DNA from: Aliiroseovarius sp. F47248L
GTDB lineage: Bacteria; Pseudomonadota; Alphaproteobacteria; Rhodobacterales; Rhodobacteraceae
Length of the DNA stretch: 64,000 nt
Assembly: GCF_023016085.1 (NCBI RefSeq)
Contig: NZ_JALKBF010000001.1
Coordinates: 372,001-436,000, forward strand
Direction of reading: 5' to 3'
Part shown: positions 15,786 to 23,721 of the stretch, piece by piece
How positions within the stretch are numbered: position 1 is the first letter of the stretch
Layout: each line of letters opens with the position of its first letter
Notes under the pieces: model-generated
Told to the model about the DNA's origin: nothing
The model's input: the letters and a program-made list of their open reading frames with translations, nothing else
Databases searched by the model: none
Translations under genes and position numbers: made by a program

Positions 15786-16010
15786 TTATTTGGCACGCGC
15801 CCCTTTCGGTCCAGCCATGGACCCGAGACTGGCCAGCATGGACCATGCTGCCCACACCGGTGCATAAAGAACGGCGGCAGGCATCATCGCATTGGCGTTA
15901 CCCATAGAAGATGCTGGTACAGCCCTTGATGGACGGTCATCTGCCGGTCCTGACTTGGATGAGAACAAATGTGGAAACAGTTCTTCAAAGTCAACTTTAC
16001 TAATCATCAT
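15786..16010 (-). CDS. Small hypothetical protein, Ala/Pro/Met-rich
   Basis: A 74-residue predicted protein with an acidic start (KVDFEELFPHLFSS), a polar middle and a hydrophobic stretch (MMPAAVLYAPVWAAWSML, about 42-59) that could be one membrane helix or an amphipathic surface-binding segment. I do not recognise a family. Composition is consistent with coding. It lies on the same strand as the DUF1127 gene upstream and the stress protein downstream. It could be a small stress-related membrane protein; this is inference only. Confidence 0.5.
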   Translation of the reverse strand: MMISKVDFEELFPHLFSSKSGPADDRPSRAVPASSMGNANAMMPAAVLYAPVWAAWSMLASLGSMAGPKGARAK

Positions 16011-16115: not shown

Positions 16116-16421
16116 TCAAACGGCGCCTTGATATTCACCAGTTGAACTCTGATCCGCTGCCAGCGGAACCATTCCAAGTTCACGATCATCGAAAGCGTCT
16201 ACAATGCGTTCTATGTCTTGACGACAGATGCCCATGTCTCTGAGCACACGATCGTCCAACGCTTGCATCGCCGCGATCAGTTTGCGCCGTTTCCAGCTTC
16301 GGATGGTCGAACGCCACCAGCGGCGCAAAAACCCATCCTCTTCAGACACGGAAAGGGTGTTCGTTTCCGCCCAGTTCGGTCGCAGATCCAAGAAATTATG
16401 GTGAAACAATATGGGATGCAT
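16116..16421 (-). CDS. DUF1127 family protein (copy 1)
   Basis: A 101-residue protein whose C-terminal half carries DUF1127: FLRRWWRSTIRSWKRRKLIAAMQALDD (in part about 33-59), then RVLRDMGICRQDIERIV. The domain is short and Arg-rich, with the LxxLDDRxLxDIGxxRxDI pattern. DUF1127 proteins in Rhodobacter and Agrobacterium affect RNA turnover and stress physiology. The start at 16421 follows GGAGGATGAC; a longer frame to 16538 has no such site. The three-copy small element (16556-16671) lies 135 bases upstream on the same strand. Confidence 0.82.
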   Translation of the reverse strand: MHPILFHHNFLDLRPNWAETNTLSVSEEDGFLRRWWRSTIRSWKRRKLIAAMQALDDRVLRDMGICRQDIERIVDAFDDRELGMVPLAADQSSTGEYQGAV

Positions 16422-16555: not shown

Positions 16556-16671
16556 GTAACAACCCCGAGGCGTGGAGCGGCAACATTTGCCAGCCCCGCC
16601 CGGGGCTACCGGCGGTTCAGTGTCTTTCCTGCGAAAGGCAGGAACCTCTTATGCGAGCGGGTTATCATCAT
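16556..16671 (-). ncRNA. Conserved small element, copy 1 (hairpin plus terminator)
   Basis: Reading the minus strand, the element begins ATGATG, contains a 7-bp hairpin (TTCCTGC/GCAGGAA) and then the core CTGAACCGCC. A 10-nt loop holding CCCC and then GGCGG follow, giving hairpin CCGCC/GGCGG. An internal stem GGCAA/TTGCC and finally CGGGGTTGTT come next. The loop CCCCG can pair with the distal CGGGG as a pseudoknot, or as the base of a terminator. Two further copies in this window (16842-16940, plus strand; 23136-23253, minus strand) share the core with the same stem and the same 10-nt loop. It is upstream of a DUF1127 gene. Whether it works as RNA, as a tiny gene or as an attenuator is open. 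Confidence 0.55.
16606..16671 (-). CDS. Candidate 21-residue small protein (element copy 1)
   Basis: An open frame of 22 codons from ATGATG to a TAG that lies in the loop of the conserved hairpin. Residues MM at 1-2, HKR at 7-9, AG at 14-15 and LNR at 18-20 are identical to the equally long frame in copy 2 (23188-23253). It is small and basic. There is no good Shine-Dalgarno site, and the predicted promoter would start the transcript at or next to the ATG, so translation would have to be leaderless. The conservation could instead reflect the RNA structure. Confidence 0.4.
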   Translation of the reverse strand: MMITRSHKRFLPFAGKTLNRR

Positions 16672-16677
16672 GGTTCA

Positions 16678-16706
16678 TATATGGGACGTATAAGCCGCGC
16701 TTTCAA
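16678..16706 (-). promoter_or_regulatory. Heat-shock-sigma-like promoter of element copy 1
   Basis: On the minus strand TTGAAA (16706-16701), a 17-base spacer and CATATA (16683-16678, preceded by C to give CCATAT) stand 6 bases before ATGATG. Copy 2 has TTGAAC, 17 bases, CATATG and 6 bases at exactly the same positions. The TTGAA / CCATAT form resembles alphaproteobacterial RpoH-type promoters. Confidence 0.5.
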
Positions 16707-16841
16707 TCCTGATAGACTTAATCAGTGGTAATCGACGCCGACCCACCAGATTGTGGGCCATTTGGGCCACAGAATGCCTAGAATGCCTATGTTTGCGTCT
16801 CTGGATTGACTATTGATCCATCAATACCTAGGTCCATTTAC

Positions 16842-16940
16842 ATGATGGTACATGCAGAACATTCTCGATTTCTATTGCTGAACCGCCCCTTTCCCCGGGC
16901 GGTCTAGGCGCGTCCGCGCCTGCCACACCCCCGGGGTCTC
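16842..16940 (+). ncRNA. Conserved small element, copy 3 (hairpin plus terminator)
   Basis: Plus-strand copy located 49 bases before the first Rnk-like gene. It starts ATGATG (16842-16847) and has the core CTGAACCGCC (16878-16887), a 10-nt loop with CCCC, GGCGG (16898-16902), an internal stem GGCGCG/CGCGCC and then CCCCGGGGTCTCC. The segment between ATGATG and the core is 15 bases shorter than in the other copies and lacks their first hairpin. The TAG present in the loop of copies 1 and 2 is TTT here, while the hairpin is kept. This argues that the RNA fold, not a fixed peptide, is under selection. A 22-codon open frame (16842-16907) still exists, with H at 7 and R at 9. Confidence 0.5.
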
Positions 16941-16989
16941 CTCACATTCCTGAAACGTGAACAAGGCGTCTGTCGCCGGAGGAGAAATA

Positions 16990-17442
16990 ATGTTCGATCT
17001 CAGTCAGCCTGACCGGGCAACCATCGCAGTCCATTCCCTTAGCAGCGCACTGCTGAACACACCATTGGCCTTGCCTAAAGCGGACCACCGGAAACTGCAG
17101 GAACATCTTGATGCATGTGATTGTGCTTTGCGCTCCAGCTCTAAACTTCTTGCGTATGTTCTGGCAAATAAGTTGATGAACACGCGGCCCGTGGAAGGGT
17201 TGCATTGTTCTGATCTGGCGATCGGTGGATCACGCGTCACCTATGCAATTGATGACGAAACGCCCCAGACTGGTTTGCTTGTCCACCGGGCCAGAGCAGG
17301 ATTGCCCAGCGGAGTTATCCCCGTTGCGTCGTTGCTTGGAGCCACCCTGATCGGGATGCGGGTCGGTCAACGTGCGCCGCTTCTGCGCGAAGACGGAACC
17401 ATCGGCAGGCTTGCCGTGGTCGACGTCTCAAGTCCGATCTAG
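16990..17442 (+). CDS. Rnk/GreA C-terminal-like protein (first of pair)
   Basis: A 150-residue protein with a helical N-terminal region and a C-terminal GreA/GreB-like FKBP-fold domain (GSRVTYAIDD, HRARAGLPSGVIPVASLLG, LIGMRVGQRAPL). That is the layout of the Rnk family, named as regulators of nucleoside diphosphate kinase, which bind RNA polymerase near the secondary channel. Start choice: GGAGGAGA stands six bases before the ATG at 16990, while an in-frame ATG at 16957 lacks a site. Copy 3 of the conserved small element, ending in a terminator-like hairpin, sits directly upstream and could act as a leader. Confidence 0.75.
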   Translation: MFDLSQPDRATIAVHSLSSALLNTPLALPKADHRKLQEHLDACDCALRSSSKLLAYVLANKLMNTRPVEGLHCSDLAIGGSRVTYAIDDETPQTGLLVHRARAGLPSGVIPVASLLGATLIGMRVGQRAPLLREDGTIGRLAVVDVSSPI

Positions 17443-17490
17443 GTCCTTGACCACGTCCCGCACTTACCCTTGAACGAAAAGAGACTATCT

Positions 17491-17922
17491 ATGTCTACCT
17501 CTATCCAAACACCGAAAACATCACGTAACCGAAACCCGAAAATCGTTATTAACGCGGATGATATTACGCATTTAGAAGGGCTGGTGGATGGCATGATGAG
17601 GCGTCATCCGGCACTCGCTGACCGCCTGCTTGATGAAATCAGCCGGGCGCGGATTGTTTCGCCTTCCAAGATGCCGAAAAATGTTGTGGGCATTGGCAGC
17701 ACCGTAACCTACCGTGATGAAAGCACGAGGCAAAATAAAACGGTGACGCTGGTCTATCCTGAAGATGCCGATATCACGCAGTTTCGAGTGTCGGTGATGA
17801 CACCCATCGGTGTGGCTTTGCTGGGGCTGGCCGAAGGCGCAAGCTTCTACTGGGATACACGGGAGAACCAGCGCCGCACGTTGACCATAATCGGTGTCGA
17901 GCAACCTGAAATCGATATTTGA
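17491..17922 (+). CDS. Rnk-type nucleoside diphosphate kinase regulator (second of pair)
   Basis: A 143-residue Rnk/GreA-like protein. The N-terminal helices (INADDITHLEGLVDGMM, HPALADRLLDEISRARIV) resemble Rnk. The C-terminal domain (VVGIGSTVTYRDE, VTLVYPEDADI, SVMTPIGVALLGLAEG) is the classical GreA_GreB C-terminal fold. It matches the family better than its upstream neighbour and may be the ancestral copy. I chose the ATG at 17491; an upstream in-frame TTG at 17470 is weaker. A strong hairpin follows 26 bases after the stop, so the two Rnk-like genes probably form one unit. Confidence 0.85.
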   Translation: MSTSIQTPKTSRNRNPKIVINADDITHLEGLVDGMMRRHPALADRLLDEISRARIVSPSKMPKNVVGIGSTVTYRDESTRQNKTVTLVYPEDADITQFRVSVMTPIGVALLGLAEGASFYWDTRENQRRTLTIIGVEQPEIDI

Positions 17923-17947
17923 AGTCAGCGGTGCGGAACAGACCATT

Positions 17948-17984
17948 CAGGCGAGCACCGCCCATGCGGCACGGTGCTCGCCTG
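17948..17984 (+). terminator. Hairpin after the Rnk-like pair
   Basis: Perfect 13-bp stem CAGGCGAGCACCG / CGGTGCTCGCCTG with an 11-nt loop. No U-tract follows (AGATCAG), so it may stabilise or partly terminate the transcript. Confidence 0.6.
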
Positions 17985-18048
17985 AGATCAGATATGTAAA
18001 AGATTTAGCGTAGTTCATACTGCGCACTGCAATCGAAAGGTGTTTGTG

Positions 18049-19308
18049 ATGAAAGTTGTCGTTATGGGCGCGGGTGTCATTGGCGTCACCACTGCATATT
18101 ATCTGGCAAAACAAGGCGCAGAAGTCGTGGTGATCGACCGTCAGACCGGGCCGGGTCTTGAGACGAGCTATGCCAACGCGGGGCAGTTGAGCTATGGCAT
18201 GACATCACCATGGGCAGCCCCCGGCATTCCGATGAAAGCCGTCAAGTGGATGTTTATGAAGCGCCGCCCTTTGTTTATCTGGCCTTTGATCAGCCCGACC
18301 ATGTGGAAATGGTGCGTGCAGATGGTGCGAAACTGCAACGAGGAAAGCTATCGCATCAACAAGGGGCGCATGGTGCGTATCTCAAGCTACTCGCGCGATG
18401 TCATGCCAGATCTGATTGCCGAAACAGGCATCGAATATGACGGGCGTCAGCAGGGCACATTGCAACTGTTTCGCACGGCCAAACAGATGAAGGCATCAAA
18501 GGCTGATCAGGATATTTTAACGGAATATGGATCGCCTTACGAAGTGCTGGGTCGCGACGCCTGTATCGCCGTCGAACCTGCGCTTACCGAGGTGCGCAAC
18601 AAGTTCGTTGGTGGCTTGCGTCTGACTGCAGATCGCACCGGCGATTGCCGCATGTTCACAATCGCCCTGACCGAAAAATGCAACGAGATGGGGGTTGAAT
18701 TCCACTATGGCCAATCCATCAAATCGATCGCTGTCGAGGGAGGCAAGGTTGTAGGTGTTGACACGGAAATCGCCGGTCGCATCAGTGGGGACGCTTATGT
18801 TTGTGCTATGGGCAGCTATGCTGTGAACGTGTTGACCCCAATCGGGATCAAGCTGCCGGTTTACCCGGTCAAGGGCTATTCGGTGACCTTGCCTGTCACC
18901 GACGATGCGTTCGCACCGCAATCCACGATCATGGACGAAACCCATAAAGTCGCGATCACGCGTTTGGGGGATCGCATCCGTGTTGCAGGACAAGCCGAGA
19001 TTGCGGGCTATTCCGATCGCCTAGGCCCACATGCCACGGATACCGTCAAGCACGTGATCAAAGATCTGTTTCCCAAAGGCGGAGATATTTCTAAGGCCGA
19101 AGGCTGGACCGGTCTGCGCCCGATGACGCCTGATGGAACGCCGGTTTTGGGCCCAACGCAGTATGACAACCTGTTTTTGAATACGGGGCATGGGACACTG
19201 GGCTGGACGATGGCCTGCGGCTCGGGTCGCGCAGTGGCCGACATCGTTCTGGGCAAGACACCAGAGATTTCTATGGACGGACTGACGGCGGCTCGATACG
19301 CCCGATAG
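18049..19308 (+). CDS. dadA: D-amino acid dehydrogenase small subunit
   Basis: A 419-residue FAD-dependent oxidoreductase of the DAO superfamily. The Rossmann motif VVMGAGVIGVTTAYYLA is at about 4-20, followed by GLETSYANAGQLSYG (about 40-54), the DadA hallmark. The C-terminal FAD site is GWTGLRPMTPDGTPVLG with TGHGTLGWTMACGSG. It oxidises D-amino acids to 2-oxo acids, passing electrons to the respiratory chain at the inner membrane. The length is typical of DadA. The ATG at 18049 sits eight bases after AAAGG. It is followed by a Cds1-like PLP lyase and an opposing MFS transporter, suggesting a D-cysteine or D-serine role; no alanine racemase is adjacent. Confidence 0.88.
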   Translation: MKVVVMGAGVIGVTTAYYLAKQGAEVVVIDRQTGPGLETSYANAGQLSYGMTSPWAAPGIPMKAVKWMFMKRRPLFIWPLISPTMWKWCVQMVRNCNEESYRINKGRMVRISSYSRDVMPDLIAETGIEYDGRQQGTLQLFRTAKQMKASKADQDILTEYGSPYEVLGRDACIAVEPALTEVRNKFVGGLRLTADRTGDCRMFTIALTEKCNEMGVEFHYGQSIKSIAVEGGKVVGVDTEIAGRISGDAYVCAMGSYAVNVLTPIGIKLPVYPVKGYSVTLPVTDDAFAPQSTIMDETHKVAITRLGDRIRVAGQAEIAGYSDRLGPHATDTVKHVIKDLFPKGGDISKAEGWTGLRPMTPDGTPVLGPTQYDNLFLNTGHGTLGWTMACGSGRAVADIVLGKTPEISMDGLTAARYAR

Positions 19309-19563
19309 CACGCGTGCCCCGCGGTCCGGAAAGAAGCGCAACCGTAGAAGGTTGACGAAACAGATTTCGGGCTCGCGAGCCAAGATATGCGGGCGACTTA
19401 CTTCAAAAGTCCGAGAACCATCTGGATCAGATGGGTTCATGGTCCGAAGGTGAAAGCACGGTCTGACGTGGTTCGGTGTTTGTCTGGGTGCATCTGGGAA
19501 GGTGAACCTGATAAGATGAGAGACAAAGTGCCGGATTGACACAACCGCCAGAAAGGACACTGG

Positions 19564-20607
19564 ATGAACAGCTGGGTTACTGACGCAATCGGAAAGATCA
19601 ACGCGGATGCGCATCGTTCAGCTGACACTCATCTTTTCAAGCTCCCTTTGCCGCGCCTTGGGGGCGTGGACATCTATCTGAAAGACGAAAGCACCCATCC
19701 GACGGGAAGCCTCAAGCATCGGCTAGCACGGTCGCTCTTCTTGTATGCGCTGTGCAACGGCAAAATTCGGGAAGGCACGACCATCGTTGAGGCGTCTTCT
19801 GGAAGCACAGCCGTGTCTGAAGCCTACTTCGCGCGCATGATTGGCGTGCCCTTCATTGCCGTTGTTCCCGAAAGCACCGCGCGCAGCAAGATCAAGCTGA
19901 TTGAATTCTATGGCGGTCAAATTCACTTTGTGGGTTCCGCTCCGCAAATGCACAGCGCATCGGTCGATTTGGCCGGCGCGATTGATGGCTATTTCATGGA
20001 TCAGTTCACCTATGCCGAGCGAGCGACAGATTGGCGTGGCAACAACAACATTGCTGAAAGCGTGTTCACGCAGATGGAACGCGAACCTCACCCGATCCCT
20101 TCGCATTTAATCATGGGCGCTGGCACGGGCGGCACGTCGGCGACTCTGGGTCGATATATCCGATACAAGGGCTATGACACCGAACTTACGGTCGTCGATC
20201 CGGAAAATTCAGTTTTCTATGACAGCTATATAAGCGGTGATCGCAGTCTGATTTCCGACAAATCCAGCCGGGTGGAAGGGATCGGCCGCCCAAAGGTAGA
20301 GCACTCGTTTCAACCCGGTGTGATCGACCACATGATACAAGTGCCTGATGCCGCCAGTATTGCCACCATGTTGTGGCTGGAAGAGCTGATCGGACGCAAG
20401 GCGGGCCCATCAACAGGCACAAACCTTTGGGGGGCTTTGCGGGTTGCTCAGGACATGGTCAAGGAAGGTCGCCAAGGCTCTATCGTCACGTTGTTGTGCG
20501 ACAGTGGGGAACGGTATCTAGACACCTATTACAATTCTGATTGGGTCAGTGACTGTATCGGTGATTGCCAAAGATATCACGAAGAGTTGGTGGCCGCCCA
20601 TGGTTGA
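19564..20607 (+). CDS. PLP-dependent cysteine synthase-family protein (Cds1-like L-cysteine desulfhydrase)
   Basis: A 347-residue fold-type II PLP enzyme. The Schiff-base lysine is in [11 protein letters not shown] (about 46-56), the substrate loop is [13 protein letters not shown], the phosphate loop is [13 protein letters not shown], and [11 protein letters not shown] lies near the C-terminus. The longer, divergent form with [11 protein letters not shown] at the end is that of Cds1-type cysteine desulfhydrases, which release H2S, pyruvate and ammonia, rather than of CysK/CysM. GAAAGGA precedes the ATG. It is downstream of dadA on the same strand, so both may act in degradation of cysteine-type substrates. 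A synthase role cannot be ruled out from sequence alone. Confidence 0.8.
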
Positions 20608-20637
20608 CCATTCACTGTAGCCTGATCAACAGAATGA

Positions 20638-21894
20638 TTATTTTGGTTTGACGGGGTCCGTGCGGGGATCAAGTGCCATAGCGATGGGCGTAACATCCGG
20701 AAGCGGTACATACCGTTCCTGTTGGTCTGCTGGAATGACTGGCCGTATGGCGACTTGGGTCAGCACGAAAACTGCATAGAGAATTGCGACGGCGCTTTCG
20801 AAGATAAAAAAGCTGGACGGACCGTAGGCTGACATAAGCGTTGCGGCGAGCACCGGGCCGATCGTCGCCCCGATTGAATATACCATAAGCAAGCGGCCAG
20901 ACGCTGCGATGTAGTATTTCCGTTCCAAACGGTCGAAGGTTTGCGCAACGCAGAGCGGATAGACGCTGCTCATCGCCCCCCCAAAGAATACGGCCATGGT
21001 CAGCAAAGTCGTAAAGGGCAGACCTGAGGCAACAAAAGTGGCCAGTATCCCCCATGCGGTGCCGACAGTGATCAATGCACCAGACATGACAATGCGCCTG
21101 TCAAACCTGTCTGCCACCACGCCCATGGGAAGTTGGAACACCAGCCCCCCAAGAACCACGGCGCTCATAAACATGGCAGCTTGCGACACGCCCAGACCGA
21201 TTTTAAGCGCAAACACCACGCCCATCGCATAGAAGGACCCGACCATCAGACCTGCCACGCCTGCACCGACCACGCCAACCTTCGACGCCGAATAAAGATC
21301 CCTGACGTTCAGCACACGGCTCTCGCTTAGATTGGGTTCGCCCAAGCTGGTCATTGCAACCGGGATCAGTGCAAGTCCGATCAGGGACGCCGCCAACATA
21401 AAGAGGTCAGGACCAGAGACATCTGTGATGTTGACCAGCGTCTGCCCCGTCGCAATCGCAAGATAAAAGGTTAACATGTAGAAACTGAGAACCCGTCCGC
21501 GCGTCTCGTTGCTGCTGCGGGTGTTAAGCCAGCTTTCAATCGTGGCTGTCAAACCAGCGATACAGAAGCCGTTGACAATGCGCAGGATCAGCCAGGCGAC
21601 GGGATGGAAAAAGGCCGCATATGCCAGCGTCGCAGCAGCGGTCAGCGCCGCGAAAACGGCGAAGGCCCGAATATGTCCGATGCGAAAAATCACGTGTTTG
21701 CCACGCAGACCACCCAATGCCAGACCAAGGTAATAGGCAGCCATAATCGCGCCGGTAAGGGCGACGGGATAGCCAGCACCCTCCATCCGAAGCGGCAATA
21801 TGACACCCAAAAGGCTGTTGCCGATCATGAAGGCTGCAGTGCCTCCCAGAAGGGCTTTTACCGAAACAAGAATTTCGCGAATGCTTTGTGCCAA
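20638..21894 (-). CDS. MFS transporter (YcaD-like)
   Basis: A 418-residue inner-membrane transporter with about 12 hydrophobic segments. The major facilitator pattern includes the mid-protein loop MGVVADRFDRRIVMSGA (motif A type) and GNSLLGVILPLRMEGAG near the N-terminus, close to the YcaD/YfkF group. The substrate is unknown. The start is uncertain: the frame opens at 21963, but a TTG at 21894 lies eight bases after CGGAGCACG and gives the normal length. It is convergent with the Cds1-like gene and may export or import an amino-acid-related compound. Confidence 0.82.
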   Translation of the reverse strand: MAQSIREILVSVKALLGGTAAFMIGNSLLGVILPLRMEGAGYPVALTGAIMAAYYLGLALGGLRGKHVIFRIGHIRAFAVFAALTAAATLAYAAFFHPVAWLILRIVNGFCIAGLTATIESWLNTRSSNETRGRVLSFYMLTFYLAIATGQTLVNITDVSGPDLFMLAASLIGLALIPVAMTSLGEPNLSESRVLNVRDLYSASKVGVVGAGVAGLMVGSFYAMGVVFALKIGLGVSQAAMFMSAVVLGGLVFQLPMGVVADRFDRRIVMSGALITVGTAWGILATFVASGLPFTTLLTMAVFFGGAMSSVYPLCVAQTFDRLERKYYIAASGRLLMVYSIGATIGPVLAATLMSAYGPSSFFIFESAVAILYAVFVLTQVAIRPVIPADQQERYVPLPDVTPIAMALDPRTDPVKPK

Positions 21895-22093
21895 GTTCGT
21901 GCTCCGGTCTTCGCCCTTGAGGTTGTGTTCAAGGAAGTGTGGGCAGGGGTATGCCTTCAACAACCCTGCCTAGAAACACCGATTTTGTCGACATTTAATG
22001 AATGGCTGTTTGCACTCCGATTCCTGCTTTGTCATCACAAGTGGGATCAATACCGGAACGGATGGCAAGCATGTCTGACGCGAACAGATGAAA

Positions 22094-22125
22094 CAAGCCC
22101 CGGGGATGCCGGGGCTCGTTGTTTG
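22094..22125 (-). terminator. Terminator between dps and MFS genes
   Basis: 8-bp GC stem AGCCCCGG / CCGGGGCT with a 5-nt loop. On the minus strand it is followed by TGTTTC and lies about 20-50 bases past the dps stop. It can also form in the plus direction (CGTTGTTTGT follows). Confidence 0.7.
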
Positions 22126-22144
22126 TCTAGATTATTTAATGAGG

Positions 22145-22624
22145 CTAGGCGGCCAGTGATCGTAGCATCCAGGCCGTCTTTTCATGAAAAGCTGCGCGTT
22201 CCGTTGCAAGGTCGGCGGTCGCCGGATCATTTTCCGCTTCCGCGATTTCAACCAAGGCACGCGCACGCTCTGTCAGCGTTTCGTGATCCGCCAGAAGGTC
22301 GTTGATCATCTGAACCGCGCTCAGTGCGTCGTTCGCGCTTTTGTCCGTGTCCGAGACCTTTACCGATGCGAGCTGACCCAGCGCCCTGATCCGTTCGGCA
22401 ATCACATCCGCCGCCGCGAACATCTCGTCGTATTGCTCTTCCGTCAGGCTGTGTACGGCAAAGAACAACGGACCCGTCACGTTCCAGTGGTAGGTATGGG
22501 TCTTGATGATAAGCGCATAGGTGTCGTTCAACACGTCAGCCAATGCATCGACAACCGGCTTGGCATTCCGAATATCGGATTTGGGGGTGTCGGTCATGGC
22601 AGTTTGTTTCGAAGTCGTGGTCAT
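22145..22624 (-). CDS. dps: Dps family DNA-binding ferritin-like protein
   Basis: A 159-residue Dps protein. The di-iron ferroxidase residues are in place: THTYHWNVTG (first His), AVHSLTEEQYDEM (second His plus Asp/Glu) and the adjacent ERIRALG. The N-terminal tail is Lys/Thr-rich, consistent with DNA contact. Dps dodecamers oxidise and store iron and coat DNA in stationary phase or oxidative stress. The ATG at 22624 follows GGAGAAGAC; an upstream extension to 22696 has no site. It shares the region with other stress genes and has a clear terminator after it. Confidence 0.9.
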   Translation of the reverse strand: MTTTSKQTAMTDTPKSDIRNAKPVVDALADVLNDTYALIIKTHTYHWNVTGPLFFAVHSLTEEQYDEMFAAADVIAERIRALGQLASVKVSDTDKSANDALSAVQMINDLLADHETLTERARALVEIAEAENDPATADLATERAAFHEKTAWMLRSLAA

Positions 22625-22753
22625 GTCTTCTCCAATTCTGAAAGTGGGGCTTTGCGGATGCGCATTCGTGCCGGGACAAGGGTGGTGGAGTTGCACGCTG
22701 TTCGCATGACATCAAGTGTCACAACAGCGCGCTGTTTCCAACTGCCATCCCGA

Positions 22754-23047
22754 TCACGACGGTCGCAACGCGCCCAGGTGATCGATGTTGTCGATACCGG
22801 CTTGACGCGGACTGATCCGTGCCTTTCGCTTGTGGCAGGCCGCCACAAAACTGGGAATCTCGTCTCGGAAAAGCCCAATATCAGCGAGCATTCGGTCATC
22901 AAGGTCCTGCAATTCGACGGTCATTTTGCGGCGTTGCCACTTGTCGACTAATGTATAGCGCAACCGTGCGAAAAGACCCATACCGTCGTCGGTCCGATCG
23001 TCGTGCATAGGAATGTTGATCATTTTTCTAGTCAGATAAATAGACAT
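22754..23047 (-). CDS. DUF1127 family protein (copy 2)
   Basis: A 97-residue protein with the DUF1127 core GLFARLRYTLVDKWQRRK, then LQDLDDRMLADIGLFRDEI (about residues 22-65), and an Arg/Lys-rich tail. It is distinct from copy 1 (16116-16421) but has the same overall plan. I chose the ATG at 23047 because GGAGGATAGC precedes it, as in copy 1 (GGAGGATGAC). The frame remains open to 23122. The conserved small element copy 2 lies upstream on the same strand. DUF1127 proteins in related bacteria are stress-induced RNA-metabolism factors. Confidence 0.82.
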   Translation of the reverse strand: MSIYLTRKMINIPMHDDRTDDGMGLFARLRYTLVDKWQRRKMTVELQDLDDRMLADIGLFRDEIPSFVAACHKRKARISPRQAGIDNIDHLGALRPS

Positions 23048-23135
23048 GCTATCCTCCGATTCTGATAAGATGGAACGTGGATCTTCCCGCACCAATGGCG
23101 GGTCATCTTCGTTCATTTTCATTTTTGGATGAGAG

Positions 23136-23253
23136 ATCAGAATAACCCCAGAGCAAGGACGCGCACGAACGCTGCGTCCGCCTGGGGCTACAGGCGGTTC
23201 AGTAGTCTTCCCGCGACAATCGGGGACCTTTTATGAAAACTGAACAACATCAT
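23136..23253 (-). ncRNA. Conserved small element, copy 2 (hairpin plus terminator)
   Basis: The minus-strand layout matches copy 1: ATGATG, a hairpin built from TCCCCG and CGCGGGA with one bulge, then CTGAACCGCC (23202-23193). A 10-nt loop with CCCC, GGCGG (23182-23178), internal stem GGACGC/GCGTCC and CTGGGGTTATTC follow. Loop CCCCAG pairs with distal CTGGGG; in copy 1 the same positions read CCCCG and CGGGG. The pairing is kept while a base changes, which is covariation. It ends about 90 bases before the DUF1127 start. The perfect stem plus U-rich tail make this the best terminator of the three. Confidence 0.58.
23188..23253 (-). CDS. Candidate 21-residue small protein (element copy 2)
   Basis: A 22-codon frame from ATGATG to TAG, the same length as in copy 1, sharing MM (1-2), HKR (7-9), AG (14-15) and LNR (18-20), with basic residue 16 (Arg here, Lys in copy 1). 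AGGAG stands just before ATGATG, but the predicted -10 is directly upstream, so that site may not be in the transcript. Translation is plausible, not shown. Confidence 0.42.
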   Translation of the reverse strand: MMLFSFHKRSPIVAGRLLNRL

Positions 23254-23721
23254 GCTCCTCATATGGGCTTCGGGATGTGGTTGTTCAAGACATCTATCAC
23301 CCCCTGTCACCCATTGGCATGAATGCGCTTATAGCGGGAAACACACCGCCCAGACGTGGAAGCTTTTCAGGGGGGATCAATATGGTTTGACAGGCCTGAC
23401 TGGTATTCCCTCAATCAGTTTGCCAGGCCGCACCTTCCTCTGCCGGGCTGACGCAACGGGTGCAAAAGAACGAGCCAAATGCTTCAGAACCGCATCGTTC
23501 AGGGGTTAGCCCACCTTGGATGGGGCTACTGCTAACCCCGAGCGCTTATTCAGCGCAAACTCTTTGCGTGTCCAATGCTGATTGGTCCGCTAGATTTAGT
23601 AGGCCTTTGTTTGACAACCTCTGAAGTGCAACGTGATCCGTCCCCATTGAGTTGGCCACCCTAGATTTAAGAAATATTGGAATGGAGCTCGCCTTTGGGC
23701 TCATCGTCTATGGCGCAGGTA
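23254..23721. other. Intergenic stretch with element promoter, otherwise nothing clear
   Basis: The left end holds the promoter of element copy 2: TTGAAC (23288-23283), a 17-base spacer and CATATG (23265-23260) on the minus strand. The remaining 430 bases carry no supported gene. One frame at 23360-23509 looks like a decayed fragment but I cannot identify it. Confidence 0.45.

Follow-up and report, generated by a model that had tools for sequence, protein, structure and literature searches.

Among DUF1127 genes, the closest described system is that of Sinorhizobium meliloti, in which the gene most strongly induced by tetracycline belongs to this family (PMC12218461). There, duf1127_1 is repressed by a premature stop of transcription that depends on translation of an upstream open reading frame (uORF); tetracycline relieves this repression, chloramphenicol also induces the gene, and a candidate intrinsic terminator was ruled out (PMC12218461). 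Here we describe an element that occurs three times in a window of 64,000 nucleotides (nt) from Aliiroseovarius sp. F47248L (contig NZ_JALKBF010000001.1, positions 372,001 to 436,000 of the forward strand), twice ahead of a DUF1127 gene and once ahead of a Rnk/GreA-like gene. On balance, this element is probably a uORF-dependent, translation-sensing attenuator, like the Sinorhizobium one but leaderless, structured and common to two gene families.

The three copies lie where the original prediction had placed them, and the parts that it named (ATGATG, a CTGAACCGCC core, a 10-nt loop with CCCC, GGCGG, an inner stem and a distal GGGG) are common to all of them; its gene associations and element-to-gene distances were likewise correct. 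In each copy, an open frame of 21 codons starts from ATGATG, and CTGAACCGCC (CTGAACCGC) encodes Leu-Asn-Arg (LNR) near its end. Two related types can be distinguished. Type A, represented by copies 1 and 3, has a peptide of the form ...FSFHxRFLxxAGxLLNRR (then stop), an RpoH-like promoter and a DUF1127 gene downstream of it; type B, represented by copy 2, has a peptide of the form ...HFRFLLLNRPxPRAV (then stop), a sigma70-like promoter and a Rnk/GreA-like gene. The core pattern CTGAACCGCCNNNNNCCCCNGGCGG matches exactly three times in the whole window genome, with one extra match when up to two mismatches are allowed (none in a backward control), and covariance models at E ≤0.001 found only the three window copies in that genome. 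The features of the three copies, in window positions, are as follows.

16606..16671, minus strand: uORF of copy 1 (type A), MMITRSHKRFLPFAGKTLNRR; stop TAG in the P1 loop; predicted leaderless
16672..16706, minus strand: RpoH-like promoter of copy 1; TTGAAA, first T 35 nt before the ATG; CCATAT-type -10
16626..16644, minus strand: hairpin P0 of copy 1, within the uORF; TTCCTGC/GCAGGAA
16596..16615, minus strand: hairpin P1 of copy 1; CCGCC/GGCGG; loop holds the stop codon and strand 1 (CCCC)
16563..16571, minus strand: strand 2 of copy 1, GCCTCGGGG; complement of loop strand 1
16116..16421, minus strand: DUF1127 gene downstream of copy 1
16842..16907, plus strand: uORF of copy 2 (type B), MMVHAEHSRFLLLNRPFPRAV; stop TAG directly after P1; predicted leaderless
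16806..16834, plus strand: sigma70-like promoter of copy 2; TTGAC ... TAGGTC
16883..16902, plus strand: hairpin P1 of copy 2; CCGCC/GGCGG with loop strand 1
16906..16921, plus strand: inner hairpin P3 of copy 2; AGGCGC/GCGCCT; from sequence and alignment, no covariation excess
16930..16936, plus strand: strand 2 of copy 2; CCCGGGG
16938..16943, plus strand: CTCCTC, complement of the Rnk-like gene's Shine-Dalgarno; no covariation support
16978..16984, plus strand: Shine-Dalgarno of the Rnk-like gene, from sequence
16990..17442, plus strand: Rnk/GreA-like gene downstream of copy 2; weak GreA_GreB match, under the Pfam cut-off
23188..23253, minus strand: uORF of copy 3 (type A), MMLFSFHKRSPIVAGRLLNRL; stop TAG in the P1 loop; predicted leaderless
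23254..23288, minus strand: RpoH-like promoter of copy 3; CTTGAAC ... CCCATAT
23208..23226, minus strand: hairpin P0 of copy 3, within the uORF
23178..23197, minus strand: hairpin P1 of copy 3; loop holds the stop codon and CCCC
23147..23155, minus strand: strand 2 of copy 3, GCTCTGGGG; compensates CCCCAG of the loop
22754..23047, minus strand: DUF1127 gene downstream of copy 3

A pattern scan of named genomes, together with 20 regions from other genomes of the family, gave at least 149 matches with different flanks. Exclusion of four at contig edges, with less than 60 nt upstream, and of seven chance matches (L076, L077, L084, L100, L102, L112 and L113) left at least 138 elements (at least 61 A and at least 77 B), at least 125 of them distinct over 81 nt (at least 55 A and at least 70 B). 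Ten B leaders reached via the Rnk-like protein were added by hand, giving 87 B, and removal of near-duplicates yielded the analysed set of 51 A and 64 B leaders. Alignment A3 comprises 60 of the 64 B leaders, whereas the alignments of covariance models R1 and R2 hold 32 of 34 and 26 of 26 chosen leaders, respectively.

The original prediction took the whole element for a non-coding RNA; its 5' half is instead a conserved, apparently leaderless open reading frame (ORF) that ends in or just past the hairpin. This uORF has about 16–30 codons, with ...LLNR close to its end. In type A, a stop codon occupies loop positions 3–5 in all 51 leaders (TAG in 26, TAA in 19 and TGA in 6), and the start is an ATG at -51 in 48 of them and at -48 in two. 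Type B starts from an ATG at -36 in 61 of 64 leaders, and its stop position is variable (offset 12 to 45 from the core). Among single-base codon differences, the synonymous share reached 0.587 in 62 B sequences, compared with 0.263 for permuted columns (standard deviation (sd) 0.074, highest 0.480), and 0.432 in 51 A sequences, compared with 0.278 (sd 0.064, highest 0.426). By these codon comparisons, the uORF frame is under selection. A metabolite-binding riboswitch in which the ORF is a coincidence would suit the compact, possibly pseudoknotted core; given the stop-codon and synonymous-site evidence, two target families that are unrelated and not evidently linked in metabolism, and no Rfam match in the window, we consider it highly improbable. 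Another reading is that a small basic peptide is itself the product and acts in trans, the downstream gene being merely co-transcribed. Conservation at the peptide level, strongest in B, speaks for this, as does the retention of AGxLLNR in a leader from another family (L194), where the surrounding pairing differs by eye. However, the stop of B moves while the RNA core stays, and the codons also serve as strands of the P0 and P1 stems, so that a trans-acting peptide appears quite unlikely.

In type A, the promoter motif is CTTGAAA...CCCATAT, with a -35 box that begins exactly 35 nt before the ATG; TTG (-35 to -33), A(-11) and T(-8) show no variation across all 49 leaders, and we take this class to be RpoH-like from its consensus. 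In type B, TTGAC begins at -34, -35 or -36 in 59 of 61. None of 49 A leaders and 2 of 61 B leaders have a Shine-Dalgarno-like 4-mer before the uORF ATG. Because the promoter-to-ATG distance is fixed and Shine-Dalgarno sequences are almost absent, the uORF is predicted to be leaderless: transcription would begin with the A of the conserved ATG or an adjacent nucleotide, and the leaderless uORF would be made first. Upstream of the A promoters, GTCGCA stands at about -57 to -47 from the uORF ATG in 21 of 49 leaders (0.6 expected from shuffles) and is a possible regulator site. GTTCC-type partial palindromes occur at about -61 to -52 upstream of some B promoters (9 of 64; 1.6 expected).

Downstream, the type of gene follows the type of element almost one to one. 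Among the matches listed, 135 elements have a downstream ORF; one protein cluster takes in 58 A, a second takes in 72 B, and 5 elements belong to neither. DUF1127 was detected in 47 of 48 A downstream proteins scanned. For B, GreA_GreB matched 10 of 49 proteins and Rnk_N 2 of 49 at E ≤0.05; with so few matches, 'Rnk-like' is a weak label. The main-gene ATG keeps a near-constant distance in B (median +113 from the core, 49 leaders). For 15 of the 64 B leaders and 3 of the 51 A leaders, the search for a main gene gave no acceptable candidate; some of these cases are contig ends, and others may be pseudogenes. The original prediction had left a leader or attenuator and a stress small RNA (sRNA) as the main options; since gene type goes with element type, the former is the better one. 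A stand-alone sRNA, derived from the 5'-untranslated region or from its own gene and acting in trans via its C-rich loop, would account for the fixed promoter place, the compact fold and the C-rich loop. Moreover, the S. meliloti counterpart, sORF26, is counted among small ORFs lying inside previously annotated non-coding RNAs in one study (PMC10117765). Set against this are the association with genes by type, the conserved reading frame, the lack of a terminator after strand 2 and the lack of an Rfam match in the window, and we therefore view an sRNA as unlikely.

Several observations concern the neighbouring genes. The window genome has five DUF1127 genes (L254–L258), and the element stands only at the two inside the window. 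The gene after the Rnk-like one (17470–17922) is a clear Rnk; in L067 and L141, the Rnk-like protein and Rnk are seemingly fused in one ORF of 307 amino acids. After the DUF1127 gene of copy 1, a small protein characterized by MMxSKxDFEELFPxLF and without a Pfam match is encoded at 15786–16010 (minus strand), and 14 of 47 A loci have a [KR]xDFE[ED]LFP motif no more than 1.1 kb downstream.

At the RNA level, the 5' arm of P1 is made up of the LNR codons; the uORF stop falls within the P1 loop in A, and in B it is found inside the hairpin or past it. Loop strand 1, CCCC(G/A)GG, is complementary to the distal ..CGGGG of strand 2, so that P1 and the stem between the two strands (1:2) compete in a nested folding model. 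While strand 2 is not yet made, this energy model places P1 at 0.97 in B and 0.30 in A; once strand 2 is made, 1:2 beats P1 in 51 of 51 A and in 49 of the 57 scorable B leaders (of 64). Mean folding z-scores were -2.57 for A and -2.39 for B (first 40 leaders per type). A switch between P1 and stem 1:2, formed by the loop CCCC and the distal GGGG, is predicted from the model.

The exchange of CCCCG/CGGGG for CCCCAG/CTGGGG, noticed in the original prediction, is real in the window and is seen again in relatives, where the outer pair of 1:2 in type A is GC in 41, GU in 7 and AU in 3 of 51 leaders. Compensated 1:2 variants include CCCCGAGGC/GCCUUGGGG (L208), CCCGG/CCGGG (L176) and CCCCAGG/CCUGGGG (L266); in B, 98.8% of cells show pairing between strands 1 and 2. 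Ten leaders have a strand 1 unlike CCCCGGGC, and in eight of them (not in L194 or L209) the own partner gives a better duplex energy than the mean of the others. For P0, P1 and P2 of type A taken together, 18 double-changed cells were counted, compared with 9.8 (sd 3.6) in shuffles, and 15 of the 18 lie in P0 inside the uORF. The search pattern fixes P1, the covariation of which therefore cannot be judged in pattern-found leaders; the one two-sided change observed is CCGCU/AGCGG, in L261, a leader that blastn located on a plasmid, and in the mixed B alignment P1 shows one-sided changes and misses only. The B stems P1, P2 and P3 as a whole do not score above shuffles in covariation (206 of 500 reach the score). 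Further downstream in B, P4/P5 exceed shuffles (1 of 500) but score equally when slid by one column (0.216 vs 0.213), which makes their support ambiguous.

How the fold might act on the downstream gene can be proposed in outline. The element would be the 5' end of the messenger RNA of the gene downstream. Once a ribosome had initiated at the leaderless ATG and moved as far as LNR-stop, it would cover strand 1 and block the 1:2 stem; if initiation or early elongation fails (under stress, on ribosome inhibition or with few competent ribosomes), the RNA would fold into 1:2. This fold would set whether RNA polymerase continues into the DUF1127 or Rnk-like gene: with a translated uORF, the gene would be off through premature, probably Rho-dependent termination, and with an untranslated one it would be on. 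The direction of control (translated = off) is borrowed by analogy only from S. meliloti duf1127_1.

The earlier view that the copies end like a terminator did not survive comparison. Of the 8 nt that follow the distal GGGG, the stretch considered here, at least six are U in 4 of 51 A and 0 of 61 B leaders (the 61 of 64 in which that GGGG was located). An intrinsic terminator was thus rejected: the stem is there, but 47 of 51 A and all 61 B leaders have no U-tract behind it. Nor does the element resemble an amino-acid attenuator of the his/trp type: the peptides inspected lack a regulatory codon run for one amino acid except for LLL in B, and no U-tract follows strand 2.

Alternatively, the switch may be translational, with the region after strand 2 (CTCCTC, or CCCGGGG itself) or other parts of the leader masking the main Shine-Dalgarno and the state of the uORF deciding the outcome. 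In B, CTCCTC faces GAGGAG, or CCCGGGG faces CCCCGGGAG, with 80% of cells pairing, and the near-constant distance to the main-gene ATG fits as well. Yet the CTCCTC/Shine-Dalgarno pairing has no covariation excess (its score is reached by 477 of 500 shuffles), the B Shine-Dalgarno is hardly less open than with shuffles (0.187 vs 0.203, lower in 27 of 49), and with a ribosome masking the uORF stop its predicted opening hardly changes (a rise of more than 0.15 in 6 of 49 leaders, closing in 2). For A, the real leaders have a less open Shine-Dalgarno than versions with a shuffled upstream part (0.179 vs 0.251, lower in 36 of 48), and a ribosome masked onto the uORF stop raises mean opening from 0.18 to 0.27 (opens 13, closes 6; n=47); on the other side, no conserved A anti-Shine-Dalgarno was seen by eye. 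As the main mechanism, Shine-Dalgarno sequestration is weakened for B and may apply in A, and we rate a translational switch as rather improbable overall.

Returning to the transcriptional attenuator, several results weigh against it. Neither kind of termination is directly supported, since there is no intrinsic terminator and no rut-like excess of C over G downstream (0.294/0.299 in A, 0.292/0.352 in B). Moreover, the tendency of a masked ribosome to open the A Shine-Dalgarno would favour translated = on, opposite to the proposed direction. Given the missing U-tract, the missing C-over-G excess and the mixed Shine-Dalgarno results, the target and sign of the switch are inferred. Swapping strand 2 partners among leaders did not worsen the duplex energy significantly (own -20.60 vs -20.51, fraction 0.26), nor did swaps within A (0.72) or within B (0.97), so that the case for 1:2 comes from near-invariance and a few compensated variants. 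In addition, the coding signal of A codons outside the P0 hairpin is weak by itself (0.292 vs 0.250, sd 0.087), the -10 box of B is loose ([CT]ANNNT in 38 of 61), and promoter classes and start sites are deduced from consensus and spacing.

More copies exist in related genomes, which the original prediction had proposed to search with a covariance model. Carriers are mostly Rhodobacterales, with some Hyphomicrobiales, some plasmids and one member in another family of the class. Models R1 and R2 gave matches in 17 and 18 of 198 family genomes, respectively; among the latter, L239 was judged chance and L240 doubtful. A protein search of the same 198 genomes with the Rnk-like product gave 20 matches in 15 genomes, and the leader is present at 19 of these 20 genes (not at L177), including in forms missed by the exact pattern. 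A wider search with R1, R2 and R3 covered 289 genomes of the class under stricter Infernal filters, at which weak matches are lost. Its only accepted match besides the window genome was L194 in G401, which was part of the R3 training set but not of R2's; the uORF of L194, MMIKAQHWLIASAGRLLNRSPPRGR, ends ...ASAGRLLNRSPPRGR and lies ahead of a DUF1127 gene (Pfam E 4.6e-12). The other class-wide matches inspected (L195, L250 and L251) were judged chance. By blastn, type B was found in 8 plasmid records and type A in 9, and all 10 plasmid loci examined carry the uORF leader (L264 is type B); plasmid carriers include Hyphomicrobiales (Roseibium and Mesorhizobium), and one Sulfitobacter indolifex DSM 14862 plasmid holds three elements, one A and two B. 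Divergent A/B pairs about 280 bp apart recur.

Some members depart from the two types. In L210, the A uORF is retained, although LNR and P1 are gone. The doubtful distant member L240 (G096) has a frame ending ...RFFRIIFQNRPFSRTA, and its strand 1, GTTTTCCCG, is fully complementary to a distal CGGGAAAAC; it has no clear leaderless start and no fitting gene downstream. In L184/L213, L189/L214 and L223, the peptides mix A-like (F[SP]GSLL[NT]R) and B-like (xLPRA) parts and the hairpin is shifted (e.g., CTCTGCC/GGCAGAG); these may be intermediates between types A and B. Type B elements also appear in records titled as Actinomycetes, namely Enemella evansiae TN21-6 and Nocardioides marinus DP1N28-1 (JAFKDC010000002, with L088 and L111, and JAHVJD010000005, with L098). 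These records look mislabelled or contaminated, because the first contig has a length of 148,527, the same as contig 2 of G002 from the window's family.

More tentatively, the elements might together form a translation-status regulon, in which a promoter, a leaderless LLNR uORF and a P1-versus-1:2 switch are combined with two promoter classes and two unrelated gene families. If so, DUF1127 and Rnk/GreA-like genes would both report whether ribosomes start on leaderless message under stress, and the element would be a natural sensor with leaderless initiation as its input. What had been an anonymous repeat becomes a regulatory cassette that is defined and can be tested, with carriers in dozens of Alphaproteobacterial genera. 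It is also a simple natural system for studying which signals leaderless initiation responds to when cells are under stress.

The ermC-type translational attenuators have stems that compete above a uORF, and the element resembles these in its competing stems but differs in that its Shine-Dalgarno pairing is without covariation support. In Rhodobacter sphaeroides, CcsR/CcaF1 (RSP_6037) combines a DUF1127 gene, an RpoH-linked stress response and C-rich RNA loops; the CcsR RNAs sit downstream of the DUF1127 gene, and a DUF1127 member of this species reportedly binds RNA. In type A, the element shares the DUF1127 gene, a predicted RpoH link and the C-rich loops with this system; in contrast to CcsR, it lies upstream of its gene, and the window has no Rfam match. 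Indeed, Rfam 15 gave no match at the gathering threshold in the window, where three sub-threshold matches miss the copies, and no description of the element was found in searches of open-access papers. The claim that the element is undescribed thus holds for Rfam in the window and for the open-access papers searched, but not for the principle, as uORF attenuation of DUF1127 was published in 2025 (PMC12218461).

Conserved uORFs joined to RNA structure are also described for uORFC-8-2 in the cysS leader of Rhodobacterales and uORFC-6-1 in the hflX leader, mostly of Bacillales (PMC8632094). According to these descriptions, uORFC-8-2 comes from the same order but was found only before cysS, and is set apart from the present element by its genes (PMC8632094). 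This and a further source describe other Rhodobacterales motifs (PMC8632094; PMC2864571), and the word DUF1127 is absent from the main texts of both. As in the Rho-dependent attenuators tnaC and Bordetella pertussis bp2923, translation of a short uORF would decide downstream transcription (PMC12218461); unlike these, the element has no known arrest ligand or motif, and its Rho dependence is proposed.

The closest relation is to the S. meliloti duf1127_1 leader (sORF26). As there, a uORF stands in a DUF1127 leader (type A, 47 of 48) and an intrinsic terminator is lacking (here, after strand 2); the S. meliloti leader was proposed to report translation status (PMC12218461). The two differ by description in several respects: the S. 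meliloti uORF has a Shine-Dalgarno, whereas those of the window type are predicted to be leaderless (by the 4-mer counts above); its sensor consists of C-rich codons 3–10, masked by a hairpin with the ribosome-binding site, whereas the conserved part here is the 3' end (LLNR, P1 and strands 1 and 2); and the element here also serves a Rnk-like gene (PMC12218461). The uORF control of DUF1127, found published for one species, would thus extend to a different, structured design shared with a Rnk-like gene, and the element is predicted from its sequence to differ from the published S. meliloti system in being leaderless, structured and common to two gene families.

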